Of a stretch of DNA of 64,000 nt, positions 19,706 through 45,902 are shown in pieces (within the stretch, counting starts at the first letter, position 1; every line of letters starts with the position of its first letter). Made by a program: the position numbers and the translations under genes. The stretch lies in contig FWCC01000174.1 in NCBI GenBank assembly GCA_900169235.1, positions 62,001-126,000 of the forward strand. Reading direction: 5' to 3'. This DNA is from Zarea fungicola (lineage: Eukaryota; Ascomycota; Sordariomycetes; Hypocreales; Cordycipitaceae). The notes below the pieces were generated by a model that saw only the letters and a program-made list of their open reading frames with translations, was not told the origin of the DNA and did no database searches.

Positions 19706-20868
19706 GCGTATGGTTGGTGCGATAGGGACACTGGTGGAGCTATATGTGGTGTAGGGAGAGGCAATGCGGCAGATTGCTCCATGCAGTCGCGGACAAGGTT
19801 GAATAGACTAGGAGAGGCGATGCTGAAAAAGAAAGACTGTGATTATTTAAAGTGGTGTGAGGCGGGCACAATCAGAGGGGTGGTGAAGGCTGTCCAGATG
19901 GTGCACCAGCTATCACTACCAGTTTTTGATGCACTGGCAGCGGAAAAAACTCGGCAGCTGCTCCAGCACGGTTTCGTTTGCGCGGGGGTGGTTGGGCAGT
20001 AGGCAGTGGACGAGCGACCGTTGACCAGCGTTCTTGTCAATGCGCATACGCTGTAGAGAATAGGAGCAGCATCCACGGGCGAAGGAAGACAAAAGAAGAA
20101 GAAGAAAAAGTAAGATGAGTAAGATGAGTGAGAGAAAGATTGGACGAATTGGCCCAGCCAAGATTAAAGATGGTGGCTGACGAGCCTGAAGGAGGAGCCA
20201 CTTGGGCAACTGTGCAGCGCAGCCAGTGGAAGAATCAAGGCCTGAACGGCCCTAGAGCCGCCGACGCTAGGCGACTTTGGGCCTGTGCGGGCCGCTGGGG
20301 CTAATGGCGCATCTAGGCGTTGGGTGTTGTACCTTGGCATAGGTGGTGTAGTGCCAGGTACCACATTGCTCTGCAACAAGTGGTGATACCAGCAGCCACG
20401 ATGCAGGCGATACATGGGTGGTACAAACACAAACACTTTTTGCCACAAGTTGTACTGGAACACTTATTAGTATTTTTGTATCTTGTGTGCGAAGTGACCA
20501 GCAATTTATACCGCAGAGCACATGACTACCTAGGTAAACTTTATACGGTCAACACCAGCATTTAGCATCATAAACATTGACCGTCAGCTGTCGCTAGGCT
20601 CGCCTAAGCACTTGTAGCAACTTAACACAACGCTCGCCGGATCAAACTTGGCAAGTAGCGTACAGTACATCGGCAATGGCTGATGGGCTGAAGTAGCCGA
20701 GTAAATGCGTCAACAACCTGGTTCCTCCAAAGATTGTGTCTTGCTCTGGCTGCCCTACAAGAAACGCTCAAATGTAAACATAGCATCAACTGTTCGACAT
20801 GGTCCTGATTTCAGAGTTTGGCAGGAGCCACAAACTTCTGCACAGTCGTTTGCATTCCATCCATTCCT
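19706..20868. other. Intergenic between NAB3-like gene and the accessory block
   Basis: About 1.2 kb: the NAB3-like promoter and the 3' flank of the monooxygenase gene. One inverted, one-mismatch copy of the cluster motif (ATCTAGGCGT, 20311-20320) is present but is probably fortuitous. No gene supported. Confidence 0.5.
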
Positions 20869-23117
20869 TCAACTCTGACCTTTCGTGGATGGAAGAAGTC
20901 CCGCTCCATTTTCCAAGTACCACGCAAGATCACTACCATCATACTCGCGCTTTGAGAATCCATTGGCAAGAAACGAGAACCGATTTCTACCCCAGTATTC
21001 CATATTGTAATCTTCAAATCGGGGCGACGCAATGACCTCTGCAAGCAGCACTCTCGAACCAGGGAACATGGTCAGCTGCCCGTCTGCTTTACCGTTTTTG
21101 AACCACGAAGGACACGGCCCAGACCATGCCGTGCGCTTCAACCAGAGATCAGCATGCTCCACGAAATCATCCGCCGCGGCTTGCCGAGGCGACATGGCCT
21201 TGATGTTGTCTGTCTGCATCTTGTGGAGCACCGTGAGGATGTTGTCCAGGTATAGCTCTACCATGGACGTGTAAGAACCATGCCCAGAAGCAAAATACGG
21301 CCCGCCCAAGGTAAAATAGTTGGGAACTAGAGGCAGCCGTTAATCACATGGTAAGATTAACAAGAGAAACGGGAAAAAATCTTACTCTCCGGCACCGCCA
21401 TCGCAAGGTAGGAGATTGCTCTTCTTCTCTGGATGTCTTGCACGTTGCGACCATTTGCGATGATTGGAAATCTTGGCACAAACGACGTATCGAATCTACA
21501 TTCAGTTAGCTGCAAACTCTGCCATAAGAAACTGCCAAAAAAAAGCCATGCACTTACCCCGTAGCACAAATGATGACATCCACTTCATGGTGGTTTCCTT
21601 CGTGGTCTTTGAATCCTGTCGGGGTGACCTCCTGGATGGAGCCCAAAAAGGTTGTCACATTTTCCTTTGTCAAAGCTTCTAGAAAACCATTTCCAGGCTA
21701 ACACAATCATTAGCCAGCGCTGCGCAACGTTAAAATAAGTAGTAACCATACCGTGGGACGGCGACAGCCCACATTGAATGTCTTGGGAATAAGCCGATCC
21801 GCGATATCGCTTCGATGACCCAACTTCTTTGTCATTTCATCGGTAGAATACTATAATGACCGTGACATTAGTGACCAAATTTGATGGGAAGAAATTTTCC
21901 TAGGTCATACCGTTTTAGCCGTTTCCGCTTCTGGCGTCCCAACAAGAATCATCTTGAATGCCAAACTAATTTCAGTTTCAAGCTGTTTGCAATATTCCTC
22001 GTACTCGTCCGGGTAATCACGAAAACGATTTTTCTGTTCCTCAGAGTCTGTCACCATAGAATTTCAGCATGTATGCCAAAGTGCCCAGGTAGGAGGGGGA
22101 AACGGACATTCAAAGTTATTCCCATCCGGGCCAGCGTACTTTTGTGCAAAGCCAGCTGTAATCCACGTCGGAGACCGCACCCAGCAGTAAAGTTTAGACA
22201 CTTTATCAGCAATGCTAGGAATAATCTGCACGCCGCTACTGCCAATTCCCACAACGGCAACTCGTTGTCCTAGTAGATCGGCGCTTTCGTCGTAATCGGC
22301 CGTGTGGTACAATTTGCCTTGAAACGTCTGCAGCCCTTTCACGTCGGGCCATTTCCACGAGCTGCACAAGCCAAGAAAAAAAAAATAAGTTACCAAAACC
22401 AGCAAAGGAAGATCAGTTGATTGTTAGTACCAGTCACTCACTTCAAAGGCCCGCTCCCATTGAGGAAAATGTCGCACGTGTCGGTGAAACACTTCCCAGT
22501 CGAGAGGTTCTTGACTTGAATATCCCAGCGTCCTCGGTCGGAGTCCCAGTGCGCTCCGAGAACTTCATGGCGTAGATGGAAAAACCTGTCGAGATTGAAC
22601 TGTTGCACAATGTCTTGAAGATACCGTAAGATCTCGTCGCTTGTAGAGTAAAATTTAGTCCAGCGTGGGTTCCTCGCCCAGGAAAACTACGCTCATATCA
22701 GCTTCCAGATTTTATAGTGAACAAGACAAGAAAAAACACAAACCTGGTAAACATGGGATGGAATGTCACATGCACACCCTGGGTATCTTGACTACTGTTA
22801 GAGCGATCTCCCATGCGAAAATAGGAGGTTGGGAGAGTATACCTATTTTCGTACCATGTGCCTCCCAAAACGGGGTTTTTGTCGTACACTGTAAGAGACA
22901 CATTGCGCAGTCTCTCGGGAAGGAATTTAGCGAGGCAGATACCGGCAACTCCTGCACCGACAGATATGATTTTCAGTGGCCTTTCCACTCCGGAGCACTG
23001 CTCGGTAATTCTGTACCCATTTTCATTGACTGTAGGCCATCCGTAGCGAGCTGGCAATGCCTGAAAGTCATTGGGCGCCGTGGGCTTGGATTCCTCTTGG
23101 ATGCTTGCTTCACCCAT
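20869..23117 (-). CDS. FAD-dependent Baeyer-Villiger-type monooxygenase
   Basis: Nine exons: 23117-22843, 22786-22744, 22686-22442, 22361-22108, 22047-21911, 21850-21752, 21697-21558, 21495-21386 and 21326-20869; 586 residues, usual for fungal BVMOs. Features: FAD Rossmann motif GAGVAG (residues 54-59), the GGTWYENRYPGCACDIPS block restored by splicing, the fingerprint FQGKLYHTADYD close to the BVMO consensus FxGxxxHxxxWP/D, the NADPH Rossmann motif VAVVGIGSSGVQ, and ATGFDTSF near the C-terminus. It would insert oxygen next to a carbonyl or oxygenate N or S using NADPH and O2. Intron 4 has the unusual donor GTCCGT, needed to give NNFEYSEEQ. Two GCGCYTAGAT elements lie 255 and 393 bases upstream of the start, in the divergent region shared with the FAD oxidase, so co-regulation is inferred. 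Confidence 0.92.
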
Positions 23118-23371
23118 TCTGACTGTTGTGGCTCTGGCCGAATGTCGAAATCAAATATGCAAAGTTTAGGTCCTCTTGTGTGAGTTGCCATGTATTCCAG
23201 GGCAAATTGGCCTGGCAATGGTATGCTTAAATACTTTGCAAACGTCGCCAAGCTGCAGTATATATGGCCGACTTGACTAATATTGCATAACAATCCAATT
23301 TTGTAGGGATCATGTGCAAAAGGAACGGGTTGCTGCCTGCGTCGTTGCTGTAAAATGAGGGCAATCGGCTG

Positions 23372-23381
23372 GCGCTTAGAT
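23372..23381 (+). promoter_or_regulatory. Cluster motif copy 1 (GCGCTTAGAT)
   Basis: Exact match, 255 bases upstream of the monooxygenase start; followed by TGAA, as is copy 4. Confidence 0.7.
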
Positions 23382-23509
23382 TGAACGTGCCCGCTACAAC
23401 TGAAGAGAATTAAGCTTATCTAGCTCTAACCGCAAACTAATTATACAAATTATACATCAACTTTTTTTTTTTTTCCTTGGTTGGCCCTATCTAGATTCCA
23501 TCAGAGCGG

Positions 23510-23519
23510 GCGCCTAGAT
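23510..23519 (+). promoter_or_regulatory. Cluster motif copy 2 (GCGCCTAGAT)
   Basis: Exact match, 393 bases upstream of the monooxygenase start. Continues into AAG, so it overlaps a GATAAG site. Confidence 0.7.
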
Positions 23520-24439
23520 AAGCTAGATAGATCGAGAGTACATTGTGGCGAGATTGGATACTGAATCTAACCGCTCCGTTACTCTCATTTTCCCCGCATC
23601 ATCACTAGCACTTGTGGAAAGATTCAAATCCGCAATGTCCAATTCTTGACCAGTTTTTCATGTGATTAACAACGGCCACTGTAGCTGATTAATGAACAGC
23701 CATGGCTGTTCGGCCGGTGCCGTGCTCCTCTCATCCGTGACTCGTAAAGGGTGTTGTACTTGGGCTAGAAACTGCAGGAAAATTGAGGCGTCGTCGCTTC
23801 CCTTTCCCCGGTATTCAATGCCAAGCGAAGTGATTGTTTAGCGGGTCTGCTTCCAGCTTCCGGTGCGATGCTGCCACTATTCCAGGGCAAGCTGAAGAGA
23901 AAACCATACATTCGGTTTTTTTTTTTTTTTTTAAATAAACTCTTAGCCTCATTACCGTTTCCCAACTTGGAATTCCTACGCTCGCCAAAGTACCGAGTAT
24001 AACAGGCTCAAGTATGTAACCCTCAGTGACTGCCAATCCTGCGCACACTTTGACCCGTCTTAGATTCTGCCAGCGCTGTTCTCCATCGCGATACTTGCCC
24101 CCTCCGAACGCGATTGGGGGACAAAGGAATTTACATCTTCCTCGAAGATGGAGCCAAATTCTCGCCTCAACTGGCGGTCCAGAGGTCTCCTGTTTGGGAC
24201 ACAGCAACGAAAGAGTTAATCCAATGATCACGGAACAAATGAATCAAAGTTCGTTCTGTTATTTTGGCTTCTTTTAGTACCCACATAGGCGAGGACCTGT
24301 CGCAGTTCCTCACAGATTTTGCAATGTTACTTTGTTTAGCGCTTTCACAACTTTGACACGATTTGCTTTAGAATCAAATAATACGGCTTAGCTTTTCAGT
24401 TTACACCAAACTCGATGTGGCAGCTCTCTGACGCTCGTG

Positions 24440-24449
24440 GCGCCTAGAT
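24440..24449 (+). promoter_or_regulatory. Cluster motif copy 3 (GCGCCTAGAT)
   Basis: Exact match, about 340 bases upstream of the FAD oxidase start. Confidence 0.7.
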
Positions 24450-24651
24450 TCCCAGCCATGGAAGTAAGCATAAACGCCAATAACAATACATTCACTTCGA
24501 CCAAGAAGGGAGCTACCAGTTGCCGAGGTTGGCTAAAAAGCAGCTACACGCCAACTTTCTGCGGTGTAACAGGTACACTCGTTTGCAGGAGCTGGGACTA
24601 CAACGCCGAGACTCCCTAAGTCTAGAATGGCAGTGGATCTGCCACTTCGTA

Positions 24652-24661
24652 GCGCTTAGAT
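24652..24661 (+). promoter_or_regulatory. Cluster motif copy 4 (GCGCTTAGAT)
   Basis: Exact match, about 130 bases upstream of the FAD oxidase start. Confidence 0.7.
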
Positions 24662-24781
24662 TGAAGCAAGCCTCCATGGTCGACCACCGCATATAAAAAG
24701 GAAACTAGTACGAGCCTCACTGTTCCTTAAGGACCGCACTTCAAACTCTTTCAAACTGAGAATAGCGTCCATTAGGGCATC

Positions 24782-26391
24782 ATGGCAAACTTGATGAAGT
24801 ACAGTCATCAGGGCCTTCCTGAAAGGGCAATGGATGAAGCGGTAAGGCTGCCTGTTGTGTTTTGGGGAAATCGCATGTTCAACAAACTGACTTGGACCGC
24901 AAGTGTCAAGCTCTTGTTAGAATTCAACCACACAATACACTTCTTCCTACTGATCCAAGATATGAGGAGGCCAGGGGAACGTTCTGGACCCGACAGCAGT
25001 CCGAACTGACTCCAAGATGTATATTTCAACCTCTTAACACAGAAGACGTGGCCATAGCCATGCGAGCGGTTACCAAATTCGGTTGCCCATTTGCCATAAA
25101 GAGCGGTGGACATGCCTCGTTCGCAGGGGCATCAAGCACGCCGGGCGTTTTGATTGACTTGGTAAAACTCAACCATGTCAGAGTGGAACATGATCAGAAA
25201 GCCGTCCAAGTTGGCCCAGGTTGCCGCTGGATAGACGTTTATCCACGTTTAGAGCGATTGGGATTAACTGTCATTGGCGGCCGAGATGCCAACGTCGGCG
25301 TTGGCGGATTCTTACTCGGCGGTATGTCACACTGGACAACACAATCAAATCTCTTGCTGACAATAGCAGGAGGAATATCTTTCTTCTCCAACATTTATGG
25401 CTGGGCCTGTGACAACATTTTAGCATATGATGTAGTTCTTCCCCATGGGAAAATCGTCACTGCCAGCGCTACAGAACACCCGGATCTTTTCAGAGCTCTG
25501 CGCGGTGGTGGTCCGAATTTTGGTGTAGTGACCAGCTTTAAGCTGCGAGCAATCCCATATGGCGGTATGTGGGGTGGTGTCACAGTGCATGATTTGAGTG
25601 CGACAGACATGCTCCTGAAGAAGATGATTGCATATGATCATGACAGCGTCTACGATCCGAAACTTTCTGTCATCTTAAATTTTGGCAAAGGAGATGGCCA
25701 ATGGCAGTGGGCCAACGAAATCCATTATTGCGCACCCAAGGCAGATGCGGACTTCTTCAATGACTGGATGACCATTCCGTCCACCGCAAATACGACAACG
25801 GTAGCGGAGTTGTCTGCACACACTTTGGACCTTGCAAGTCGTACCCCTGCAAACTACAGGTGTACATTCTGGACACTTTCAACCGAATTAGACTTTGCAG
25901 CATCGAAAAGCTTCGTGAAAATCTTCATTGAAGAGTGTGAAAAGGTTGAAAACCAGGTGGTGGACTTTGAACCTTCCATTTGCATGCAGCTGATTACCAC
26001 TAGCATGATCAAGCAAATGAGCACAGACGGGGGGAATGTTCTCGGCTTATCAGAACACTCAGGCCCTCTTATTCTCTACCTTATCTCCTCGCGCTGGTCC
26101 AAAGCCTCAGATGACCACAGAGTATACAACGCCATGAACTCAGTGATTCAGCGTGCGGCAGAGGCTGCCAGGAAACTTGGAAAGGCTAATGACTTCCTTT
26201 ACATGAACTACGCATCTCAATTTCAGCGTGTGATACCAAGTTACGGGGAGGCCAATGGCAACTTTCTTCGCGAGGTCTCCCACAAATACGACCCTTTACA
26301 AGCTTTATCAGCTTTGCAAAACTACTTCCCTTTATATGGCCAGGAAAGACATATCGGCGTGGCTCCTGCGGCGCGAAAGAGTCTTTTGTGA
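24782..26391 (+). CDS. BBE-like FAD-linked oxidoreductase
   Basis: Three exons: 24782-24841, 24904-25321 and 25370-26391; 499 residues. The second intron (48 nt) is in frame and stop-free, so it is easily read through, but removal restores the family block FLLGGGISFFSNIYGWACDN. It has the PCMH-type FAD-binding domain with KSGGH (His90, the 8-alpha-histidyl flavin site), GPGCRW and GGGPNFGVVTSFKL, and a C-terminal berberine-bridge domain ending in YDPLQALSALQNYFPL. The cysteine that makes the second flavin bond in bicovalent BBE enzymes is absent. Relatives oxidise amines, alcohols or sugars and pass electrons to O2. No signal peptide is seen, unlike many secreted members. Two motif copies lie in its promoter; the divergent neighbour is the monooxygenase, suggesting that they act in one pathway. 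Confidence 0.9.
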
Positions 26392-26749
26392 ATACTAGCC
26401 ATAGTAAGGCTTAAATAGAAAAAAATAATGTCATACCATTTTGTAACAAAAACCAAACTTGCCTATATTACTTTTAGTGGTCAATCGTTGAAACTACTTT
26501 ATTTCTCATATCCCCTTTGACAAATTCCCAGATCATACTGCTGGGACTGGCTGTTTCGACTATTCTCCTTCTTGTAACTCTCCTGTGCCAACTGTACGTG
26601 CCTGCTCCGAGACGGCAGCTATTGCGCCTGCTTCACAACGGAGAAACGGGTCATATTCTCCGACATATTCATAACGAACTCTCATCCTAATTGTGAGCCG
26701 ATAGAGCAAGTACAGTCACGACTAAGTAGCATGCGGTGTTCCAGCCAGT

Positions 26750-26759
26750 GCGCTTAGAT
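26750..26759 (+). promoter_or_regulatory. Cluster motif copy 5 (GCGCTTAGAT), orphan
   Basis: Exact match, continuing into AAG (GATAAG overlap). No start codon of a supported gene lies within 1.5 kb in a promoter arrangement. Confidence 0.55.
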
Positions 26760-26964
26760 AAGAGATGGGCGATAAGAGCAATTCGCCGTGACAAAGCCAC
26801 ACTTTTCTTACCCCGGAATTTAATGGCTTGCTTGCATTGATGATTCTTAATTTAGCATCTGTCGTCAAAAGTCGTTACTTCGACTAATTTCATGCCGAAA
26901 TTTAAACTTCGGCCATCCGGAGCAAGCCATGCTCATTCAATACTAGTATCCAAGCGTCCCAACG

Positions 26965-26974
26965 GCGCTTAGAT
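26965..26974 (+). promoter_or_regulatory. Cluster motif copy 6 (GCGCTTAGAT), orphan
   Basis: Exact match, 215 bases after copy 5; copies 3 and 4 before the FAD oxidase are 212 bases apart. Confidence 0.55.
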
Positions 26975-27196
26975 TCGCCATCACTAGGCACCACTATGTA
27001 CCTTTTCTCTTACACCTGACTGTAGATTGTTTCACTACGTGCTACGTGCTAAAGCCTTGGGCTCCTGATAAAGGTAATTTCTTCTACCATTTTGGGAGCG
27101 CAGATATATGCGTACCAATGATGTTACGGTTCACAGGAAAAAGATGCTCGATATTTGGGATAACGCAAGGGCTATTGATTTCTCAAATTCAGCTAA

Positions 27197-28791
27197 TTAG
27201 GCTAAGAAGTTATCATGAATTCCCTCGGGAACTTTATAGTTCGACTTTACCATGAACCAATTGGCCATGGATAGAAGCATCACCACACCTAAGCCTGCTG
27301 CAGTCATATTCATATTCCCACTGGTGACAGGCATCACAGTTGGAAAAGAAAGAAAAAGACATACAACAATAGACCAGCAGATTGCAAGGACATTTATAAG
27401 AGTTCCCAATTTACCAAGCCGGAAATGGCGCTCTGACGGAAACGCTTGACCGCGGCCCTTGACCAAAAGTAGCACATTCGGCATCATGTAGCTGATGACC
27501 ACACAACAGATACCAGCCCCAAATAGGGCATTGAGAACCGTAGTCGGCCCAAATAACAGAAGGCTGAACAATACCGGTATGAGTGTAGAGAGGAAAACAG
27601 CATTGATAGGAGCCTCCAGGCGGTCGTCCGTAGCCCCAATCCAGTTTTGAAACGGCGTGCCACCAGAACGGGCAAAGGTCCAAAGAATTCTGCTAGCTCC
27701 CAGCAGGACGGCACTGAGGCCATTGGAAGTCATGACAATGTAAATAATGCACACTGTGATGACGAATCCCTGTACAGGCCACGCGTCATGGGCGATTTGA
27801 AGAATAACCTGTCCTGCTAGTGGGGTAACCAGATTCTCTGGATGCAACGTACAAAAAATGATGGCCACAATCATGATTAGGCCACCAAGTGTAGAGAGCA
27901 CAGTATTACCGACCATGACGATGGGGATGTCCTTGGATGGATTCGGTGTCTCCTCTGCGAGGTGTGCCGCTGCATCAAAAAGAGCAACTGTAAGACAGCC
28001 AGGGAGTATTCCCGTCATGAATACAATTCCATCCGAGTCCCAGCCTGTTTCATTGACGACATCAATAAAGGCTGTACGGGCGGAGGCCTTGGGGCTTGTT
28101 ACCGCTAATAGTGTAATGAAGATGAATAGCGCGGCGATGTTTAGGAAAAAGACCATGAATATTGTAATTGCCGACATTGCTCTGATGAGAGCGCTGTTGA
28201 AGAGCAGACAGATGGACATTACTGCAATGGTAGTGAGGTAAATATGCCAAGTGTGTGGTGTGTAGTCTGCGACAAGAATGATGCCAAATGAGGCAATAAA
28301 GTTAGCCGCGTACACGGCCGACCCAGCCGTAATTAGAAGCCAACCCCAGCAAGTAAGGGATCCGTTGACGTAGGATAGGAAACGCGCCGATTTGCGGCCA
28401 CTAAGGCGCGCCGTCCAATATGTTTGGCCTGCATGAGCATGTAAGAACGTCTGTGGTAGGTTGAGAAAACGGTGTACTTTTTCTTCTTACCAGAAACACT
28501 TGGAAAGGCACCCGCCATCTCGGCGAGGGAAAGCGCTGTTACAAGCTGGCCAGTGACGGCAACAATATATCCCCAGAACAGATAAGGACTGCCTCCAGCG
28601 CCGGGTAAAAGCGTCGCCCAGCTCGCTATGGCAAGGGGCGACGCCGTAACTGAAAACTGAACACCAATTGTGCCCCAAAAACTGAATCGATTTGATTTAA
28701 GCGTCGAGCTGTGCAGGCCTACTTGACCATCGTCGGACGTTGTCGCTGGCGAGGTGGATTGCATCAGGGTTTTTCCCTTGGCTTCGTCCAT
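27197..28791 (-). CDS. APC-superfamily amino-acid/GABA/choline-type permease
   Basis: Two exons, 28791-28491 and 28428-27197; 510 residues. The protein has about twelve hydrophobic segments and the layout of fungal GABA/choline permeases (Uga4/Hnm1-like): first helices in SFWGTIGVQFSVTASPLAI, the QTYWTARLSGRKSARF block restored by the splice, and EETPNPSKDIP preceding a GNTVLSTLGG segment. It should import a small amine or amino acid across the plasma membrane with protons. Two motif copies lie 225 and 393 bases upstream of its start, so it appears co-regulated with the oxidative enzymes. A dedicated amine/amino-acid importer points toward uptake of a nitrogenous substrate rather than product export, although APC carriers also occur in biosynthetic clusters. 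Confidence 0.9.
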
Positions 28792-29015
28792 TGTTCGAGA
28801 TTGTTTGCATAGATGTGTGCATGTAAAATATGTTGAAAAGAAACAAGTGTAGGACGTAGCCAGTACAGATTGCTAATCGTAGAAGGCTAGGATGAGCCCA
28901 ATCTGGGGAAATCTCGGAATTTAAGTGATTCATGGCGATTTGGGCATAAACATCAACCTCGTTTACTCACGAGATGAGTTGTAAGGTGTTCTCAACATTC
29001 GGAGAGAGACAGATG

Positions 29016-29025
29016 GCGCCTAGAT
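29016..29025 (+). promoter_or_regulatory. Cluster motif copy 7 (GCGCCTAGAT)
   Basis: Exact match, 225 bases upstream of the permease start. Confidence 0.7.
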
Positions 29026-29183
29026 TCATTTTTTACTATGCACTTCTTGCACCAAAGGCGTGACACTAGCGAACCTTTAACGCTTGGTGGCTGTCTTGCG
29101 GTGATCTACAGTTGAAGCGGTGGTTTAGAACATTGATAGCGAAGATGCATAATAGACCCACTGCCCATTACAAGTAAAAGTCA

Positions 29184-29193
29184 GCGCTTAGAT
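29184..29193 (+). promoter_or_regulatory. Cluster motif copy 8 (GCGCTTAGAT)
   Basis: Exact match, 393 bases upstream of the permease start. Confidence 0.7.
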
Positions 29194-29799
29194 CTGGTAG
29201 GAGAAAGCTAAGGCAAATGGCAGTAATTCTCGGGATAATATTTATTTACCGTGAAATAAAAAGCATTCCAGCCGAAGTTTGTAGGGTTGTTCGGCTGAGT
29301 GGAACGGATGCGGGGAAATCAGCCTCGGACCACTCTCGAACGATAGTGGCGCGCCGAGTTGGGTCGAGTTGGGTCAAGTCGTGGCACATGACGGTAAATC
29401 CAACCAAGAAGCCAAAGGTTTGAATGAAGAAGGCTTGAGCTTATCTAGTGAGGCTAGTGAAATTGGCTGGTGTCCTCGGTATGGCGAATAGTAACCATCT
29501 GCATATGGCCACCCATTGCAAGCACCGCTAAAGTCTTTCCACTTTAAGCACCGCTAATGTACGACTTCTGACGAGAGCTGAATTCTCCTGATGGTTGTGG
29601 CGCGAGTTGAAAGTCTGTTGGGCTGGTGCCATAAGTTTCGTTTCCTGCCTAACTACTGGTCCACGTTCCTCGCTCTTGTCCGTCCTAGTGTTCCATGGAA
29701 AATCGAGCCTAACCTAGAACATAACTGACTGGATATTGTACTTCATTTAGATGAGCTACGATGAGGTCTTTGAGTAGTTCCTAAATTTAGTCAACTAAG

Positions 29800-31519
29800 T
29801 CAAGCAAAACAGTAACTCGCCCCATGATACTCAATGGCCTTGTTTAGCCCTCGTAGACCAAACCAGCTTTCAGGCCCTTCCCATACCCATCTGAGGCTTT
29901 CCATTGCCCGTTCCTGGACAGGAAAGGCTGCAAGGATACCATTTAGATACTGTACAATCGCCGCACGATGGCATTCCTGTGCGGCAAACGAGGCAATAGC
30001 TATGATTGGCCAAGCTGTCGAGGTACTGAAGGGGCTGCTTCGCAGGTCTGGCAATACCTCTAGCATGCGCTGGACTATTGGTTGTGACATGTCGCGCAAG
30101 TATATGTCGTCTAGCGAATACGACGATAGCAAAAAGAGGAAAATTGCATTTTGTGCAATAATTTGATGTGCCAATTTCCCACGCGCAAATCTCGCGTTGC
30201 CATCATCTGCTTCGTCTTCTTCAGGCCGCTGCGGCTGCGGCTGCGGAAGAGCAGGATCAGTCCAATGTGTGATGACGTATTTGAGGCGCTCAAACTCTTC
30301 GTCGCACTGCAGATCGACGCCTTGTTCGAGTTCCATCTTGCGATTGGCTGCCAAGACGCATATCTCGGGAATCATGGCGAATAACTCTGTTGCACCGCCA
30401 AACAACACACCAAGTCCGTTGATTTGGGATAAATTTTTTAATTGCAAAATGGACGAGTTTGATGTGGCATGAATATCAGTTTGATCAGGAAGTAGACGTA
30501 TGCTAGAAGACAGTTCAAAGAAGGCATAGGTCTCCAGCAAAACGTCGAGCAGTCGCTTCGAAGATCCGTCCCTGCAGGTATAAGCAAAATGCGAGAAGAG
30601 GCGGCTGGCTCGGAGATGACGGAATAAAAGGCCATCCTTGTTGCCCTGAAAGCACTAGATCCGACGAAACCAGTCAGCATGTGAAGCTACCATGTATGGT
30701 GCCCTACTCAACGCAGAGTCGAAGGGCAGGGCAACTCACCTCGTGCTGGCACAAGAGCATGGTAGTCAGGAACACGGACACGACCACTGAATTATCCACG
30801 GGATCATCCACAGATCTCGATGCCCAATCAGTCAGCTTTAGCTTGAGTTGCTTTATAACTTTGCCATAGCACTCCAGTGCGCACCGCTCCTCAGCTCTTG
30901 TTGCCTCCTCAAAGTTCCACATACAAGTTCCGCCAACAGTTAATACAGCGTTCATAATCATGCTATCTGAGAACGCCATTGGTATGACGTCATCTATCCA
31001 TGGATTCACATATCCGGACGGGGCCGCAATGAACAAGGGTGAGAATAACTCGATGTAACGCTGCAGGAGACGTTGCGATGCTTCGCCATAAATCCCTGCT
31101 AGAGGTAGTGCTGCGAATAGAGGCGGCGCGCATAAGCCTTGTGGTGACTGTACACATAGCTTTCTTGCCCTCGCACTTTCCAAGGCCGAAATTTTCCGAG
31201 TTTTCGCTGCCCGCGCGCTTGGTCGGACTGATGCTGCGGCTGGTTCCTTTTCATTGGCAGCAGTGGACAGTCCCATTCGAATCCGCCAGGCAAATTCGTC
31301 CGACGCTGGCCATGTACATATAAGATGGAGTTTTTGGCAGCCACCACAGGTTGGCTTCACCTCATCACATTTCTTCTTGCGCAGACGACAACAGAGACAA
31401 CCAGTCTTGCATCGACTCCTTCGCGGCTTCAGGAATAAACGGCAGTCAGGCCGGGCTTCGACGGGGCATGACATATTCGAGGTTGAGTTCGATCCTCGCA
31501 GGGCAGCAGTGAACCGCAC
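29800..31519 (-). CDS. Zn2Cys6 transcription factor 1 (candidate cluster regulator)
   Basis: Two exons, 31519-30740 and 30645-29800; 541 residues. Near residue 40 a complete binuclear zinc cluster, C-X2-C-X6-C-X6-C-X2-C-X6-C (CLCCRLRKKKC, then CGGC and a final Cys before TW), is followed by a fungal-specific regulatory domain of the PF11951 type through to the C-terminus. The intron joins CQHE to GNKDGLLFRHLRASRLF. It lies in the middle of the motif-bearing genes and is divergent from the imine-reductase-like gene, so it is the natural candidate for the protein that reads GCGCYTAGAT. That motif has no obvious CGG repeats, so another protein could bind it. A site 685 bases upstream of its own start would allow autoregulation. 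Confidence 0.9.
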
Positions 31520-32203
31520 AACTCAGAGCAAGCGAAAGATGTATTTTCGTACAGTTTCAGGACAAAGTTGTTGCTTTTACTAGAATCGCGGAGAAGAAAT
31601 TACATAAAATACGGGGTTCGAGTGTGGCGTGCGGGGAAATGCAGAATTTGGAGAGCCACAGGTGAGTGTGGGTTGCAATAAGAATAATGTCCATTTCTGC
31701 GACGATGGGCTTTGGCCCGCCTGGGAAGTGTTGATGTCGCCGCTTGAATAGCTTCAGTAAAACCTTGACCCTGGTAATTTTGCAATGAATCTTACAGGGC
31801 TCTGCAATGCATATATGTGGTTAGGGGCATCGATGATGCCTGCCTCGGTGAACCGTCCACTTCTCCATGACCTGGCAGGGCGCAAATATTTATCGCCACT
31901 CACCCTCTACTGTAGAAAGTATTGAATCGATTATTATGCGTCATAGCATGCTCTTTATTATAGAGGTAGAGGTGCCTGTTCCGGACTTGACAAATGTCAG
32001 TTCAATATTTGCAGTAGGATAATATTTCGTTACGCAGCGTCACAAAATCCCTATCTAGTACAGGTAAATAAAAATACTTGTCTGATTTACGACGAGACAG
32101 TAGGTACCTGCATTACCAGAATAGCGTGAACTACTAATGGACTCCTTACTGCCAAAATAGCAGCAGTGGTTGTCGTCCATCTTGGAGAATGAGCTTATCA
32201 GCA

Positions 32204-32213
32204 GCGCCTAGAT
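32204..32213 (+). promoter_or_regulatory. Cluster motif copy 9 (GCGCCTAGAT)
   Basis: Exact match, 685 bases upstream of regulator 1 and about 900 upstream of the imine-reductase-like gene. Overlaps GATAAG. Confidence 0.6.
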
Positions 32214-32959
32214 AAGGCACTGCGGCGGCGCCAAGTGCCGAGCGGCCGATTCGCTGCTCCGTATTTAATTGGGCTTCTTGTGCTGCTAAACCTCTTCTGA
32301 TCTGGGCTGGGTGTGGTTTGGTAATGTAACGCCTCGGTGCTTTCCTGGGAGACTCTCGGCTGCATAAGTTGCTGCAAAAGGGGCTTGGGTATCGAAAACC
32401 ACGTACAAGGATATCTTGACGGAAAGAAACGGCACTTGGAGGCCCAAAAAGTACACTGGCAGTGGTGAGTCGCCAAAGTTGTTGTCCCTCGTCCGTTGGC
32501 GATTCATTGACGGCTGTGTATCGCACGTGGAATATATATAATCGGCCGAATGAATAATAGCTACAGACTGCAGCGTCTCTAGCAAACATTTCCGTCAGTT
32601 GGGGAGATCAGGCGCAACGGTCCTATTATATAACAGTCAAGTTCAGAGCCAACACGCACTAGACAGGTATATTTTGATGGGCCTCATTTTCACACTGTAA
32701 TTTAACGTTTCGGTCATAGCCTGGCCCAGCCCACTAGTAACCCGATTATGAGTTTCCTGATCTGCTTATAGAGCAATCATTCCAGTTGTTTTGTTTCAAT
32801 GGAGAATAGATTATGTTGATGCAACTACAGTGTGTCTTGTGGGGTTCCCGAGGCTCTGTCTGGTCCAACTTTCGTGCAGACTAACTATTGGGCTAACTAA
32901 CACATGTGGTGCACCGCGGCGCAAGGAAAACCTTGCCTGCTCACTAACATCCATGACGA

Positions 32960-32969
32960 GCGCTAAGAT
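32960..32969 (+). promoter_or_regulatory. Cluster motif variant (GCGCTAAGAT)
   Basis: One mismatch (A for T at position 6), same orientation, 147 bases upstream of the imine-reductase-like start, overlapping GATAAG. Confidence 0.5.
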
Positions 32970-33106
32970 AAGAGCCCGTTCCCACCACCATCTTGCAGCT
33001 TCGACACTGCCATCGTCGTTTGTCGTACACCTCAACCATATATAATTAGGTCTTGAACGCCGAAAACCCCCAAAAGTCGTCTTGACAAGCAACAAGTTTT
33101 TCAACC

Positions 33107-34027
33107 ATGAGCAACTCCGCCACTGATAGCTGCCCTCGGGATGTCGGCAAACCCCCTGTATCTGTCCTTGGACTAGGGTATATGGGCTCAGCGATGGCTC
33201 GGATCTTTATCCAGAACGGGCATATGGTGTTTTTGTGGAATCGCTCACCGGACAAAGCAACCCCCTTAGCCGCTTTGGGTGGCAAGGCCTGCGATACAGC
33301 AGAAGAATGCGTTCAGGCCAGTGAGATTGTTATTTCCTGCATTACTGATTCTGAAGCATTCGGGGCCGTCTTCAAAGGCGTTCATACATCCTCAGGCGCT
33401 GGGCGCATCTTGGTTGATTTTACCACTGGCAGCCCATCGCAGGTCAGGCAGTCTGTCGAACTCGCGAAGCAGCGCTCTTTCGACGCCTACATTCATGGGT
33501 CAATACTAGCTTTGCCTCTTCAGGTGGGCCTCCCCGATACCGTCGCGCTTTATAGCGGTCCAACGAAGGCCTTCAGGGAGGTTGAGGCCACTCTCAAGTG
33601 TCTAGGTCAGCCTAGGTACTTGAGTGAGGACCCTCTTCAAGCAGGCTTAGAAGAGGTTATGCTGATCAATGTGTACTACACAATGTCTGCCGGCTTTTTA
33701 CAGTCCATGGCGCTGCTAAAGCGCTCGGGGCTATGGTCCCCAGGCCTGGCTGAGAAATTTACGACCGAATCGGTTCTCCCAAGCTTGCAGGCGACGCAAG
33801 AGTCCTTGGTCGAAATTGCAAGGCAGATAGACAAGCAAGACTACAAAACAGATGGGACTGGGTGTCGACTTGGAAACCACCTTTCTTCCTTGCGGAACTT
33901 TATTCGAACTCATCAGGAGCTCAAGGTAGCACCTCTTTGCCTAGAGCCATTTGCGGACCTCGTCGAGAAGAGAATCCTGCAAGGTGGCGGAGACGAAGAG
34001 TTGAGTGGTTTGGTTGATATTCTGTAG
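33107..34027 (+). CDS. Imine-reductase-like NADP(H) dehydrogenase (6PGDH/beta-hydroxyacid DH superfamily)
   Basis: Single exon, 306 residues. It opens with an N-terminal Rossmann domain: GLGYMG at residues 22-27, WNRSPDK at the end of strand 2 (the Arg/Ser pair favours NADPH), and SCITDSEAF and VDFTTGSPSQ further on. The C-terminal half is helical and lacks the GxxGxGxxxK motif of true beta-hydroxyacid dehydrogenases, having instead the region around QAGLEEVMLINVYYTMSAGFL that resembles imine reductases. Members of that group reduce cyclic imines to secondary amines with NADPH. It stands divergently from regulator 1 and near an aminotransferase and an NmrA-like reductase, a context that supports imine chemistry. 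A simple hydroxyacid dehydrogenase role cannot be excluded. Confidence 0.85.
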   Translation: MSNSATDSCPRDVGKPPVSVLGLGYMGSAMARIFIQNGHMVFLWNRSPDKATPLAALGGKACDTAEECVQASEIVISCITDSEAFGAVFKGVHTSSGAGRILVDFTTGSPSQVRQSVELAKQRSFDAYIHGSILALPLQVGLPDTVALYSGPTKAFREVEATLKCLGQPRYLSEDPLQAGLEEVMLINVYYTMSAGFLQSMALLKRSGLWSPGLAEKFTTESVLPSLQATQESLVEIARQIDKQDYKTDGTGCRLGNHLSSLRNFIRTHQELKVAPLCLEPFADLVEKRILQGGGDEELSGLVDIL

Positions 34028-34629
34028 AAAACTTACTAGAATAGTAATATTAATAAAATGAAGCGCATCCTGGTCCGACTCGGGAACCAAGGTACCAAAT
34101 GAGTTGCAACTATTGTTTGCTCACGACCAGACCATTCTGGATATCGGATGACACGAATGATGGAATCAATGCGAAGGGCTTGGCTAGTCCACTAATATTG
34201 GCACCTTTTTTTTGTTCTCTGTTCTACTTTGCCGACAGCGACGCGCACAAGAACGATTGCTTTATAAGCACATCGCGGAAACTTGTAATCGGATCGCCAG
34301 CGTTACAATCACTTGAGAGATCTATGTAGCATTATGATAATATAAGGATCGTGTAAGAAATATGCTGATCAGTACGGAGTTCCGAGTACTTCGCACATGG
34401 GTCACGCCCTCATTGCGAGGGCTACGGACTCGATCCCGGAATTGTCACGGAATTGTCGGGAATGATGTAGATGAAAATGATGTCACGCTGCTGGCTTCTA
34501 TTAGTAGAACTGCCATGATTTAAATTCAATCCGAATCCCAACTTCTGATTTCCTTCGTGAATACCAAGCCATTTCGTTGAGTAACACCCATCACAAGAGC
34601 GCTGAGGAGCTACATAAACCATCGATACA
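34028..34629. other. Intergenic
   Basis: About 0.6 kb before the SnoaL-like gene. No copy of the cluster motif. A perfect hairpin GCCCTC-ATTGC-GAGGGC is at 34406-34422, and GGAATTGTC is directly repeated just after it. Confidence 0.5.
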
Positions 34630-35234
34630 ATGGCAGCGACGAACGCGCCAACTCCAGGCAGCACATATATTCACGTCGGCCCGTGAAACTTTAAGTCACG
34701 GTCCATACCCTCATTGCGCTTCAGCGAGGCCTATGGAAAAAGGATGGCTGGTGGCGCTCCTCCATCATATGGTCCATATACACGATGGTTCCATCCCGCG
34801 GCAACCTTCGTGACTCAGGATGATACATTATTTGCCAACGGCGCTGAGAAATGGGACTGGTTACTTCGTGCATATGGCTCTAATAAGCATTCTCAAGTCA
34901 GTATGCGAGAAATACAAGCCACGGTAGTGTTTGGGGGGCCATGCTATATCCAGGTGGTGAAGTTGAAGACGTTACGGGAGACCCATCCATGCAGCGAAAA
35001 GTTCTTACTGGGAAAGAGGTACGTGATGATTTGGTATACTACCATCCAATACTTTCAGCTGGTCAAAGGGGAAAAGCTATTCCTGTACGTCGAGTGGCCG
35101 AATTTGTTCTTGGGCCTGCTGAGGTGCAGGGACAAGGTGAGGAAGGGTGGCAGATGTGGCGGGGCAAGATCTGGTGGGATACAGCAGTAATCAAATCTGC
35201 GATTGCAAATCAAGAGGCTAAATTTGCCCAATAG
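34630..35234 (+). CDS. SnoaL/NTF2-like small protein
   Basis: Proposed exons 34630-34682, 34725-34900 and 34954-35234; 169 residues. The second intron (GTATGC to ATCCAG, 53 nt) resolves what otherwise looks like a frameshift and joins KHSQVS to GEVEDVTGD. The first is only 42 nt, so the start is less sure. The sequence TRWFHPAATFVTQDDTLF..GAEKWDWLLRAYG, then IPVRRVAEFVLGP and a W-rich last strand (WQMWRGKIWWDTAVI), has the pattern of NTF2/SnoaL-fold proteins: cone-shaped, often isomerases, cyclases or dehydratases of small metabolites, sometimes without enzymatic activity. It sits between the imine-reductase-like and NmrA-like genes and so is counted with the block, though its promoter has no motif copy. 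Function is not known. Confidence 0.65.
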
Positions 35235-35624
35235 AGTAGCATGCGATGATTACTAGTGTACGCATGGAGTTTGTTTGATTTGATCTTGGACAACATGCGA
35301 TGCAATTTTGAGCCTCTAATGTGACAATTTGACAATTGTATGTTTCTGTTAGAGTCATCTCCAGTTCCGGGAAACCCATGCCACATGCGTTACCACTGCA
35401 AGAAGCCATCATCTAAATTTCTTCCCGCAGATAAACAACTCTTGCCCCAGTAATGCATGCGTCATCGACCCTATGGACTTCACTTCGGCACAAAAACTGC
35501 AGCGTTAAGGGTACACATATACTCCATACAAGTGAGGCATCTACGGTCCCGACCTATCCAGAAATTGCAAGCTAGTGCAAATTTTGAAAGACAAAAGAGG
35601 AGAAAAGATGTTTCAATTCACAGT
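35235..35624. other. Convergent intergenic region
   Basis: About 0.4 kb between two convergent genes; A/T-rich, nothing recognised. Confidence 0.5.
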
Positions 35625-36806
35625 CTAAGTAGCAAACTTTCTGGAAAGGAAACCCTCAAGCGTCGCCAACTCTGCTGCTGCACCAGAGACGCCTCTTGCC
35701 ACAGCAGCCTTCGCCTTTAGAGCCTTTGCCTGAGTCGGGTCATAGAACTGCTGTCTAAATTTGGCGCCTATATGATGAGTCATGCCAAAGATTCCTTTAA
35801 CAGTATCGGCCTCCAAGTTACCGTCTACGTCAACCGCCTTCCAGTCAAACCCAACGTATCGGGATTTCTTCTTCGTTACTACGCGACTTGTTAGCAATAC
35901 ATTCACGATGAATAGGTTGATAAGACAGACCTCTTTCAAACGTCGTAACAAGATCTTCTAGCCTAGCAATACAGCTTATTGCCTCGATTTGCTCCCCATT
36001 ATACTTTTCGGATTCCAAGAGCGCTGCGTGGACAATATCCCCGTAGTCGCTCTCAAGGTCAATCCAGCTCATCGTCCCATCGCCTCCCAGGTAGGGTAGC
36101 CGAAAAGTGAGATAACCTTCGTCATCAGGAATGAAAGGGAAGCCACCAAAAAGCGGTGCCATGGCCTCTGAAAGGTGGTTGTCCAGGTACCAGGCAGCAC
36201 TAACACTGATGGCACTTTTGAACCCCTTCGTCCTTGCATATTCGGCGATGATGGCTTTTTCTATGACAGTTTAGCTATGAGGGATCTCGTTTCCCGCCAC
36301 TTCACGTAGATTTGAAACTTACGGTCGTATACACGGACAGGGACTACGCCGTTTGTAGCCTCTGTTGCGGATCGCATTCCACTATAAACCAGAACTTGTA
36401 CCCCAACTTCTGCCGCGACGTCGACAAGCGCCTTACCAAAATCACTTTCGGTGGGCCCATTCGGCTTATTAAGGTCCTATTATCCAGATTAGGATCTGAT
36501 ATTTCTTGATGCAATTGCAAAGTAGGATTTCTTGTTGGGTGAACTTACAGGATCCTCGGTATCAGTATTCAGAAACACAGCCCAACTTCCCTGGAAAGCC
36601 TCTCGAATTTGGTGGAGATTTTTGCCATCTGCTTTAACCATCTCCACCCCAAGTCTGGAAAGTGCTTTGGACTTATCAGAGCCAGGATTTCTTGTTATGC
36701 CTCGAACAGAAAACTCGTGGTGCTTATTTGCAAGCAGAGACCGAACAACACTCCCACCCTGCAGGCCGGTGGCTCCGTACACAGTAACAAGCTTGGTAGT
36801 CGACAT
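35625..36806 (-). CDS. NmrA-like family NAD(P)-binding protein
   Basis: Four exons: 36806-36549, 36476-36323, 36260-35931 and 35878-35625; 331 residues. The N-terminus VTVYGATGLQGGSVVRSLL carries GxxGxxG at residues 11-17, followed by VRGITRNP (the Arg typical of NADP preference) and a WAVFLNT strand, the layout of NmrA-like atypical short-chain dehydrogenases. The catalytic Tyr-X3-Lys of classical SDRs is not evident. In fungi this family includes nitrogen-metabolite sensors (NmrA, binding to GATA factor AreA) and true reductases in alkaloid clusters such as SwnN and SwnR of swainsonine. Either role suits this neighbourhood: a redox sensor or an imine/enone reductase. It shares a divergent promoter, with one motif copy, with the aminotransferase. 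Confidence 0.88.
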
Positions 36807-37673
36807 TTTTAGGGGCTCGTCATAGATAGAATGGTAACATTGTATGCTAATAATGTCTTGTTTGAAGGGCCCCGTCTTTATATAAGGTTCTTAGTTAGTC
36901 GGCGAATGCCTCGGAGTGCCTTCCGGCCGAACTCCGCGGGGGAATCGCAGGTCGATTTGAACGGGGCCACATCGGCAGAAATGCTGATAAATCAAAGAAT
37001 TCGCGATGAACAGTTTCCGTAATTTCAGAGAGGAATATAGGCGGGATGTCGGTGGAGCGCCGACGCCTGCACTCACAAGGGTTTCAGTCCAACCGAGGTG
37101 TTACGGCGATGTAAGTATGACGGAGCGATTGTGTAGCGCCCCACCGCTGTTCATGCACTTGTGCCTCCGATTCTTATTTGTACATAGTTAACTACTCAGC
37201 TATTGCTATTTGGAGAGAGTGCAGATGTACGTAGTATTGAGTGTGCTTCCGCCCGTCAGTCCCCGCTCGTCGCGGCGCTTAGATAGTAGTACCAGCATGA
37301 CTCAAGCTTGGCAGTAAAAGTGGGAAATGCCGCATTTTTAGTGAGAGTTTATGATGTTCCATAATTGGATATATTGTTTTTTTTTTCAATTGAAAACATC
37401 CATTGCACCGGTTTCTCGGGGCTTGGCATCTCAGCCAATGCACAACGCCGAGGCTACAAGGCCGGAGTTGAAAGCCAGCCAAAGTGGTTGAACCCTGTTG
37501 CATCTGAGCCTTGGCAGAGGCGCTGCGCAATCGGAACTGAAGTCAAGGTCATAAGACCTATAAAGTACTCGAATATGTAGACAACTACTAGCTTCATACA
37601 GTTGTTTCATTCTCACTCCCTGCGTAACCACCCTCAGAGCTACCAGTCAATCAATAAACATAAATTCTTAGCC
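36807..37673. promoter_or_regulatory. Divergent promoter of NmrA-like gene and aminotransferase
   Basis: About 0.87 kb with one exact motif copy at 37275. No gene supported inside. Confidence 0.65.
37275..37284 (+). promoter_or_regulatory. Cluster motif copy 10 (GCGCTTAGAT)
   Basis: Exact match, about 400 bases upstream of the aminotransferase and 469 upstream of the NmrA-like start; the rightmost copy. Confidence 0.7.
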
Positions 37674-39110
37674 ATGTCGCTTGAATCGCAATCTGTTCAC
37701 GCTGCCCTCGACGCTGCCATCCAGAGATACAAGGCCCGTAATCCCCGATCCAAAGCTCTCCACGAGGAGGCTCTCAAGACATTCCCTGGTGGCAACACCA
37801 GGACTGTGCTCCACACAAGTCCCTTTCCGCTATGCATGAAGTCCGGAAAAGACTACCAGGTTTTTTCTGAGGACGGTGATACGTAGGTCTCTTAACATCT
37901 CTGGCCGAGCTGTCAAAAAAACAGGTGGGCTGGCCACAACTAACAGTCCGCACCCCGCTTCAGCTATACGGACCTAACAGGCGAGTTTTCTGCCGGTTTA
38001 TACGGGCACTCAAACCCGGTTATCTTGGAGACCTTGCAAAATGTCATCCAGAACGTCGGTATCAACATCAGTGCCACCACAGCTCAGGAGCAGTTCTTTG
38101 CTCAGTCGATGTGTAGCCGCTTTGACCTTCAGCGCATCCGCTTGACTAACTCAGGCACCGAGGCAAACATCCATGCTCTCGCAGCAGCAAAGCTTTTCAC
38201 CGGAAAGAGCAAAGTAGTGGCATTCAGTGGTGCGTATCATGGTGGTGTTTATGGCTTCAAGGACGGCAAGGTCGCAGCCAACAACATTGACAAGGCCGAC
38301 TGGATTGTCGCGAGGTATAATGACCTTGATAGTGCCGTACATGCTATCAAGAGTCAAGGTGTCGCTGCGGTGATCCTTGAGGCTATGCAGGGAGCTGGCG
38401 GGTGTATTTGCGGCACAAAAGAGTTTCTCTTGGGCGTTCAAAAGGCAGCAAAAGAGGTAAGATACTCCTATTAACAACTGCGCCTCTCTAATACTGAATA
38501 GGCTGGTGCTGTCTTCATTGTGGATGAAGTCATGACATCGCGGACTTCGAGAGCTGGTCTCTCCGCCGTGCATGGCCTTACGCCTGACATAAAGACTTTT
38601 GGCAAATACCTCGGCGGCGGCATCACTTTTGGCGCCTTTGGTGGCCGACAGGATATCATGGCCGTGTATGACCCTCGCGCTGATGCTGCCGTCGCGCACT
38701 CTGGCACATTTAATAATAACACCCTCGTTACTCACTGCGGTTATGCTGGATTGAGTAAGGTCTATACACCTGCCGTGGCAGAAGAATTTACAAAAATGGG
38801 CGATGATCTACTTGCTAGGCTCAATGAAGCGACTAAAGGCACAAGCCTCTACTTCACTGGCACGGGAACTATCGCTGCTAGCCATTTTACCGCTGATGGC
38901 CAGGGAGAGATGAAAGATGGGCTGGTGGCGATTGATGCACTAAGGGATCTTTTTTGGTTTGAGCTTCTCGAAAACGGCTATTGGATCACCCGGCGCGGGT
39001 TCTACGCTCTGATTCTAGGAACACCAGAGTCAGAACTGGATCGTTTTGTATCTGTTGTAAAGGGGTTTACCACAAAATATGCGTCCTTGGTTCAGCCTAG
39101 GAATGCATAG
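37674..39110 (+). CDS. Class-III PLP-dependent aminotransferase (glutamate-1-semialdehyde aminomutase-like)
   Basis: Three exons: 37674-37882, 37964-38456 and 38502-39110; 436 residues. Family marks: NSGTEANIHALAAAK (cofactor phosphate pocket), FSGAYHGG, DEVMTSR with Asp242 that pairs with the pyridine nitrogen, and Lys269 in TFGKYLGGG, which forms the Schiff base. GSA-aminomutase-like members move amino groups to or from omega-amino acids, amines, keto acids or semialdehydes. Its place beside an imine-reductase-like enzyme suggests amination of a carbonyl compound whose product cyclises to an imine, or the reverse in a catabolic route. The splice DGDT joined to YTDLTGEFSAGLYGH is clean. It is the last gene to the right with a motif copy in its promoter. 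Confidence 0.93.
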
Positions 39111-39205
39111 ATGTAGAGAATCTGTTCGGCTGCCACCACATGCTGAGCCCCGTTAGACACCGCATTTCCTTCAATCCTAATATACACGACTATAGGCAAT
39201 AGAAA

Positions 39206-40374: not shown

Positions 40375-40995
40375 TCAAGGGGAGTCGCTACACTTGCTTC
40401 CACAGCCATAATTCACAGTTGAGGTGGGTGCAATGTGCTGGAAGTCCTGCATCCAAGCAGTGTAATCCCGCCCTTTGTCGTGGCACCGTCTTCGGGCATA
40501 TCCATTCTGCACGAGGAACTGCTGCTGGGCCCATACGATATGGCATTGCTTGTCACTCCAGGTGCAGGATGTAGTGTCTGATGCAGAGTTGCAGTCCTGG
40601 AGAGCATATCCGGCCGTAATACCAAATTTGAAAATCTTGGACTCCACGCCAGCGGTAATGGAGATGGACCACGTCTGGCAATGCTGGGTTCCCGTCATTT
40701 TTGATACCTGGCATGCGCTGGTGCCACTGCAGTAGACCTTGCCCGAGGCCGGATACCAATCGCCCTTCTTTGCAGTCTGCGAGACCACGAAGTAGTCGGT
40801 CCAACACTTGACGCCAGATGCATAGCGGTGCCCACTGTCGGAGTCAATGTAGGTACCTTCTCCATCAGTGTATTCGCGTTTGGTAATGTTGAATGTCTCA
40901 GCAGGCTCAACAAGCTCAATTGTGCTCACTGTAGGAACTGCGCTCACCATTGTGAGTGCCGCCGTTAAGAGCGTCAAAATTCGAAAAACGGCCAT
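40375..40995 (-). CDS. Small secreted cysteine-rich protein
   Basis: Single exon, 206 residues. A signal peptide is clear (basic-poor start MAVFRILTLLTAALTM, then VSA cleavage context), followed by a short propeptide ending in Lys-Arg (ITKR, about residue 40), a likely Kex2-type site. The mature part has ten cysteines, compatible with five disulfide bonds, and is rich in Trp, Tyr and Ser. I do not recognise the family. Size, processing site and cysteine content resemble fungal secreted effector-like proteins, but no toxin or enzyme function is claimed. It lies alone in A/T-rich surroundings between two clusters of accessory genes and has no copy of the cluster motif in front. Confidence 0.8.
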   Translation of the reverse strand: MAVFRILTLLTAALTMVSAVPTVSTIELVEPAETFNITKREYTDGEGTYIDSDSGHRYASGVKCWTDYFVVSQTAKKGDWYPASGKVYCSGTSACQVSKMTGTQHCQTWSISITAGVESKIFKFGITAGYALQDCNSASDTTSCTWSDKQCHIVWAQQQFLVQNGYARRRCHDKGRDYTAWMQDFQHIAPTSTVNYGCGSKCSDSP

Positions 40996-45269: not shown

Positions 45270-45902
45270 GATGTTCTCTTTGTGCCCGATTTCACAAACT
45301 AAATGCGGCTTTTGTCCGGTTTTCGAGCGGGGCCTTCCTCAAGACGGCAAGCCTTAACGTATTAAACCAATAGCATTGTACCATCAACTCCGACGCTAGC
45401 GGATGAAATAGACTCAAGCCAATGACAGATTGATAATAAATCCGATCATATGTGTTGTGATGTCACACACAAGGGCTGGTTTCCGAAAGCCCTTAGTAAG
45501 TCCCATTTCAAGGACACCCCAATATTGAGGCCATCCGAATTCAAATACCTGTCTTAAAATAGAGTCATGTATATTTTATTGCAAAGAACTCGGTGATTCC
45601 GAAGTGAAATTCCGCCAGTAGCTTGCTCCCATAGCTCCGACGCATTTCCGGCACAGTGACGTCGTTTTAATTCGGCTTACATGGCCCAGTGCGGTTGTGA
45701 CCTCGGCAAAACAGAGAGTGCATGCTCGTAATTGTCCTGATTGTGGCCATTGGAGTTCATATAGCTACATCATTATTAAATCGGGTCTGTAAAATTACTT
45801 AAATGCATCTGACCGTCCGCTGGTCCTTTTTCCAAATGCTGAGCCTTTCTTTCTATCCTGCCCTGCCCTGCCCTAACAATTAAAGAATTTACTTCTCACC
45901 AG
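45270..45902. promoter_or_regulatory. Divergent promoter of regulator 2 and MFS transporter
   Basis: About 0.63 kb. No GCGCYTAGAT. A triple CTGCC-type repeat (CCTGCCCTGCCCTGCC) is at about 45859-45874. Confidence 0.55.

Follow-up and report, generated by a model that had tools for sequence, protein, structure and literature searches.

A short asymmetric word, GCGCYTAGAT, is packed into one gene cluster of the fungus Zarea fungicola (Hypocreales) and is otherwise found at background density in its genome. We describe it here from a 64,000-nt stretch, referred to as the window (contig FWCC01000174.1, positions 62,001 to 126,000), in which the cluster occupies roughly positions 20800-39200. From its distribution, the element is very probably a cis-regulatory activator site private to this cluster. 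Granted such a role, it would probably be read by the cluster's own Zn2Cys6/PF11951 protein, encoded at 29800-31474. The account as a whole, namely a cluster-private upstream activating sequence bound by that protein, we judge to be somewhat on the likely side.

Scanning both strands of the window returned ten exact copies, all on the forward strand and each precisely where a first-pass annotation of this DNA, which was made by eye, had placed it:

23372..23381, + strand: exact copy 1, GCGCTTAGAT, 255 bp upstream of the BVMO ATG
23510..23519, + strand: exact copy 2, GCGCCTAGAT, 393 bp upstream of the BVMO ATG and followed by AAG (GATA-like)
24440..24449, + strand: exact copy 3, 333 bp upstream of the BBE-like oxidase ATG
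24652..24661, + strand: exact copy 4, 121 bp before the BBE-like oxidase ATG and shortly before a TATA-like box
26750..26759, + strand: exact copy 5, in a convergent (tail-to-tail) gap, 359 bp past the BBE stop and in the promoter of no modelled gene
26965..26974, + strand: exact copy 6, in the same BBE-permease convergent gap, 222 bp from the permease stop
29016..29025, + strand: exact copy 7, 225 bp upstream of the permease ATG
29184..29193, + strand: exact copy 8, 393 bp upstream of the permease ATG
32204..32213, + strand: exact copy 9, preceding the regulator ATG by 730 bp and the imine reductase ATG by 894 bp
37275..37284, + strand: exact copy 10, between the divergent ATGs of the NmrA-like gene (469 bp) and the aminotransferase gene (390 bp)

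As had also been claimed, there is no exact copy elsewhere in the window, nor is there one on the rest of the 409,976-bp contig. The earlier estimate was about 0.25 chance copies in 64 kb; dinucleotide shuffles of the window (n=100) yield a mean of 0.23 copies and a maximum of 2. Since the motif was chosen by eye after the sequence had been read, which in itself speaks for chance, a post hoc correction was made over all 10-mers with one two-fold position, among which GCGCYTAGAT is the commonest in the window and in the cluster alike. Against the 10 copies observed, the largest count of any such word was 4 (48 times), 5 (11 times) or 6 (once) in 60 shuffles of the cluster, and 5-8 in 12 shuffles of the whole window, while each of 2,000 letter-shuffled versions of the motif had at most three copies in the window. 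Chance after selection was rejected on the strength of these two controls.

Allowing up to one mismatch gives 17 matches in the window compared with 6.6 expected. The seven that are added to the ten exact copies, the first of them already reported by the first-pass annotation, are as follows:

32960..32969, + strand: GCGCTAAGAT, 138 bp upstream of the imine reductase ATG and upstream of a TATA-like box
35764, + strand: within the NmrA coding sequence
23565, - strand: intergenic, in the cluster
2730, 5709, 20311 and 41676, all - strand: outside the cluster

Two-mismatch copies show no excess, with 4 in the 7.1 kb of cluster intergenic DNA and a background of 10.3 per 10 kb, the latter measured in DNA mostly chosen around copies outside the cluster.

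The same contrast holds at the scale of the genome (43.1 Mb scanned), which contains 79 exact copies: 10 in the cluster within 14 kb, and 69 scattered elsewhere. At the outside density, the Poisson tail for ten copies in 13.9 kb is 8e-24. Genome-wide the strands are balanced (42 forward, 37 reverse), and a reversed-pattern control has 52 copies. Relaxed matching is near background, as the 11-letter form GCGCYTAGATW with one mismatch allowed has 1,430 matches compared with 1,199 for its reversed control. A second regulon locus was considered and rejected: a single pair of outside copies lies less than 5 kb apart (contig C134), where 0.54 pairs are expected by chance. Gene context was examined for 40 of the 69 outside copies, of which 30 fall in a stop-free frame of 80 aa or more and nine in one of 300 aa or more. 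Because short frames cover five of the ten cluster copies by chance, only the contrast in long frames (9/40 outside, 0/10 in the cluster) carries weight.

Local density of this kind could also arise if the copies were carried by a repeat. Six of the ten copies lie in the BVMO-BBE and BBE-permease gaps, neither of which has a genome match other than itself, and among the 120-bp flanks of the copies the best pair scores 23, equal to the null median of 23 for random intergenic positions. With these two gaps single-copy and the flanks unrelated, we rejected both a dispersed repeat or transposon part and, given that flank similarity sits at the null median, a set of duplicated promoters. The first-pass annotation had itself named a genome scan as the check on its reading, looking for equal density elsewhere or a dispersed repeat; the scan instead found an element dense only in the cluster, with the two tested gaps unique. 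Chance, post hoc selection and a dispersed repeat are thus left with a vanishingly small probability between them.

What the copies have in common is a strict core. In an alignment of the ten exact copies and 32960, GCGC is invariant, followed by Y, by T in 10 of 11, and by an invariant AGAT. A flanking R at position 0 and a W at position 11 occur in 10 of 11 each, and the 10-letter form was kept because these columns are no more informative than an isolated column at -16. That the core is invariant while its flanks are unrelated suggests that it is the site itself that is under selection. The core is asymmetric and has no internal symmetry. Two stand-alone copies of a word resembling its 3' part were also seen, and their function is doubtful:

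23413..23423, - strand: CTAGATAAGCT
29438..29448, - strand: CTAGATAAGCT

This 11-mer has 15 genome copies, of which three are in the cluster, one of those inside copy 23510. Its status as a 3'-part sub-word was noticed after the fact and is weak.

Another reading of the element involves GATA factors, whose site consensus is HGATAR. This consensus overlaps four of the ten exact copies (23510, 26750, 32204 and 37275) as well as 32960, and the word YTAGATAAG occurs five times in the window, always in the cluster. A GATA site with flanking sequence is nevertheless a very improbable explanation, and as an account of the whole element it was rejected: six of the ten exact copies lack HGATAR, whereas not one of the 11 copies departs from GCGC.

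The genes of the cluster, against which the copies can be placed, were modelled as follows:

20869..23117, - strand: BVMO/FMO-type monooxygenase; several introns, exon model approximate
24782..26391, + strand: BBE-like FAD oxidase; PF01565, one intron, 515 aa
27197..28791, - strand: amino acid permease; PF13520
29800..31474, - strand: Zn2Cys6 / Fungal_trans_2 regulator, the candidate reader of the element; PF00172 and PF11951, one intron, 526 aa
33107..34027, + strand: imine reductase / reductive-aminase-type enzyme; PF03446 and PF21761, no intron
34687..35234, + strand: uncertain region, possibly a small gene that is degraded or misread; its two overlapping frames match nothing in Pfam
35625..36806, - strand: NmrA-like; PF05368, exon model approximate
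37674..39110, + strand: class III aminotransferase; PF00202

All ten exact copies are intergenic, in a cluster of which 39% is intergenic (p 8e-5), in agreement with the earlier observation that none falls in a coding exon (exons as modelled). Each of the seven confidently modelled genes has an exact copy at most 1 kb upstream, and every modelled gene except the uncertain small region has one in its upstream gap, which supports a promoter role. Of the seven genes, five carry a TATA-like box less than 400 bp from the ATG, with the copies upstream of the box in each of them. The distance from copy to ATG is nearly the same in three promoters (BVMO 393 bp, permease 393 bp, aminotransferase 390 bp), which may be a coincidence.

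Two earlier statements about placement need amending. The copies had been said to lie upstream of named genes; this is true of eight of the ten, which are upstream of at least one gene, and untrue of 26750 and 26965, which lie in the gap bounded by the BBE stop (26391) and the permease stop (27197). A hidden gene in this convergent gap (26392-27196), whose promoter could then contain these two copies, was rejected: its longest ATG open reading frame is 45 aa, and one longer stop-to-stop frame has only a sub-threshold Pfam match. The gap may hold a decayed gene or a non-coding RNA. Similarly, the element had been taken to give a boundary of 20.9-39.1 kb. The copies themselves span 23.4-37.3 kb, and the wider limits follow only if the outer BVMO and aminotransferase genes are assigned to the regulon.

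The most unusual feature of the array is one on which the first-pass annotation was silent. All ten exact copies, together with 32960, face one chromosomal direction, while the genes around them face both; ten copies agreeing under random orientation has a two-sided p of 0.002. A different kind of element could account for this, namely one that acts directionally on the whole cluster, as a control or chromatin element (for instance by recruiting a chromatin factor), in place of promoter boxes. Such an element would explain both the single orientation and the tail-to-tail copies, and it would fit the presence of copies in divergent, tandem and convergent gaps, at roughly even density in the four large ones. 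We consider it distinctly improbable, as the orientation may be an accident or a matter of history, no known fungal element of such a kind was found, and the copies sit at ordinary upstream distances from at least five genes. A hybrid of the two ideas, in which the cluster regulator, with a clade-specific stretch described below, reads a strict, asymmetric, CGG-free 10-bp element and the one-way array, spread over divergent, tandem and convergent gaps, forms a directional cluster-wide control region rather than independent boxes, is a little less improbable, yet still rather unlikely.

We now return to an activator site and to its likely reader. Since the motif is at background outside the cluster, a dedicated factor is implied, and the cluster has one regulator gene. 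Its reading frame is intact over 526 codons, and both the zinc cluster (C-X2-C-X6-C-X6-C-X2-C-X6-C) and the Fungal_trans_2 domain are present. Upc2 of yeast also carries a PF11951-type domain. Of 51 genome matches listed for the regulator, two are the gene itself; the others are partial and mostly confined to the zinc-cluster region, with three reaching about 125-190 residues, so that no close full-length paralogue is among them. An element dense only here and an intact regulator without a close full-length paralogue make a pathway-specific regulator the best reading. The first-pass annotation had proposed as much, and its proposal keeps these two supports while losing some ground to the copies outside promoters and to a core without CGG.

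The search for relatives of the regulator found 8 homologues among 7,996 candidates scored. Two of them, P0054 (Aspergillus desertorum, 43%) and P0055 (Cladophialophora immunda, 34%), have the residues flanking the zinc cluster in common with it, including the stretch EF[AS]WRxR[ML]GLS right after the zinc cluster, which has no counterpart in the six remoter homologues P0056-P0061. This stretch may provide an extra DNA contact. The predicted structure of P0054 has a mean pLDDT of 67.1, and its helix at 51-58 carries no weight as evidence, because the prediction is poor at the DNA-binding end.

In the favoured account, the Zn2Cys6/PF11951 protein would bind GCGCYTAGAT, probably as a monomer given a site without internal symmetry. 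Binding upstream of the TATA boxes would switch on the BVMO, BBE oxidase, permease, imine reductase, NmrA-like and aminotransferase genes together, and the site at 32204 could possibly serve autoregulation of the regulator gene.

Several observations weigh against this mechanism. The copies at 26750 and 26965 sit outside promoters; the NmrA/aminotransferase pair has one copy only, which it shares; the exact copy nearest to the regulator ATG is 730 bp away; and there is no exact copy in the gaps on either side of the uncertain region 34687-35234. Uniform orientation is unexpected of a promoter box that works either way. There is no Zarea regulator among the 8 homologues found, and the regulator and BBE homologues of Cladophialophora immunda are listed on different contigs (of different listed sizes). 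Finally, and as the main difficulty, the core is without CGG, the triplet read by most Zn2Cys6 proteins (PMC3334620).

This last point bears on another possibility: a real cluster-specific cis-element whose reader is encoded elsewhere, for example a C2H2 protein, with the cluster's Zn2Cys6 protein acting via other sites or at another step. A site of 10 bp that is asymmetric and CGG-free is indeed unlike classical Zn2Cys6 sites, and the intergenic DNA of the cluster has fewer CGG triplets than expected (155 observed, 200.8 expected). On the other hand, a factor with other duties would imply sites elsewhere, and the element stays at background level beyond the cluster (69 copies, with 52 for the reversed control). 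Classical Zn2Cys6 repeats were tried as alternative sites and rejected: in 105 tests of spaced CGG/CCG and TCG/CGA patterns across the promoters none was enriched or common to them (best uncorrected p 0.037), so no competing Zn2Cys6-type site is seen. We regard a reader encoded elsewhere as an unlikely alternative, yet one to be taken seriously.

The gene content of the cluster offers hints about its chemistry. The best PDB match of the aminotransferase is to beta-phenylalanine aminotransferases (E 2e-100). With a BVMO, an imine reductase and an amino acid permease next to it, this suggests a chemistry of beta-amino acids or of amines and ketones. A Zarea fungicola protein shares 95% identity with the imine reductase. 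Exophiala bonariae has homologues of both the imine reductase (54%) and the BBE oxidase (39%), P0009 and P0068, whose locus tags are two apart (LTR84_004998, LTR84_005000) on contigs of equal listed size. Near-adjacent tags mean that part of the cluster may be old, and they hint at an imine reductase and BBE oxidase pair conserved across fungal orders. The differing contigs in Cladophialophora immunda, and the lack of a Zarea regulator among the 8 homologues from 7,996 scored candidates, speak against an old cluster. A literature search on such a cluster found no paper, and among the loose-term matches listed none names the aminotransferase. Beyond the range of the element, the window also contains a second Zn2Cys6 frame (44658-45338, - strand) and an MFS transporter (46381-47655, + strand). 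Separately, the frame 40375-41046 has a signal-peptide-like start, judged by eye, and no Pfam or NCBIfam match; it is perhaps a small secreted protein.

An important aspect of these results is that a span and a candidate regulator, defined from sequence and tested against the genome, can be given for a cluster whose modelled genes include no polyketide or peptide synthase. Such a cluster may escape finders that take these backbone genes as their starting point. In addition, an imine-reductase/reductive-aminase-type enzyme beside a beta-phenylalanine-aminotransferase-like one is a lead on the natural role of such fungal enzymes. If it is true that the cluster regulator is the reader, a CGG-free site would be added to the Zn2Cys6 recognition code.

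The first-pass annotation called the element undescribed. This holds to the extent of a literature search by its letters, in which no fungal paper was among the matches listed (titles and abstract starts). Parallels can be drawn with several known systems. Among them are the promoter motifs of Fusarium graminearum, where 19 clusters have an over-represented motif (PMC4198257): these too are short motifs enriched in one cluster's promoters relative to the genome. They differ in sequence (the TRI6-type TNAGGCCT; GTGGtgCCAC of cluster C02, a palindrome), and strand orientation is undiscussed in the parts consulted, the word 'orientation' having 0 occurrences in the text. TerR of the Aspergillus terreus terrein cluster (PMC4360782) is likewise a Zn2Cys6 activator encoded in its own cluster, where it has several sites, and its monomeric DNA-binding domain and basic N-terminal stretch count as further likenesses. 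It reads a CGG direct repeat, TCGGHHWYHCGGH, in contrast to the CGG-free element described here. TopC of the Tolypocladium top cluster (PMC10609478) is a hypocrealean cluster Zn2Cys6 regulator that binds cluster promoters, for which MEME proposed a common motif; that motif, ATCGTTGTGTTTATTTGTTT, is unrelated to GCGCYTAGAT.

Other parallels concern the site more than the cluster. Pho7 of fission yeast (PMC5559640) is a Zn2Cys6 protein with a long asymmetric site, TCG(G/C)(A/T)xxTTxAA, and its authors considered monomer binding. It is a genome-wide phosphate regulator and not cluster-private, and the site in the promoters studied holds one CGG. The yeast proteins Upc2 and Ecm22 (PMC3334620) are Zn2Cys6 proteins with a CGG-free site, TCGTATA, though they are sterol regulators and the site is another one. 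Overall, cluster-specific promoter motifs are an established kind of control, and what is new here is a sequence unusual for the Zn2Cys6 family combined with an unusual orientation bias.

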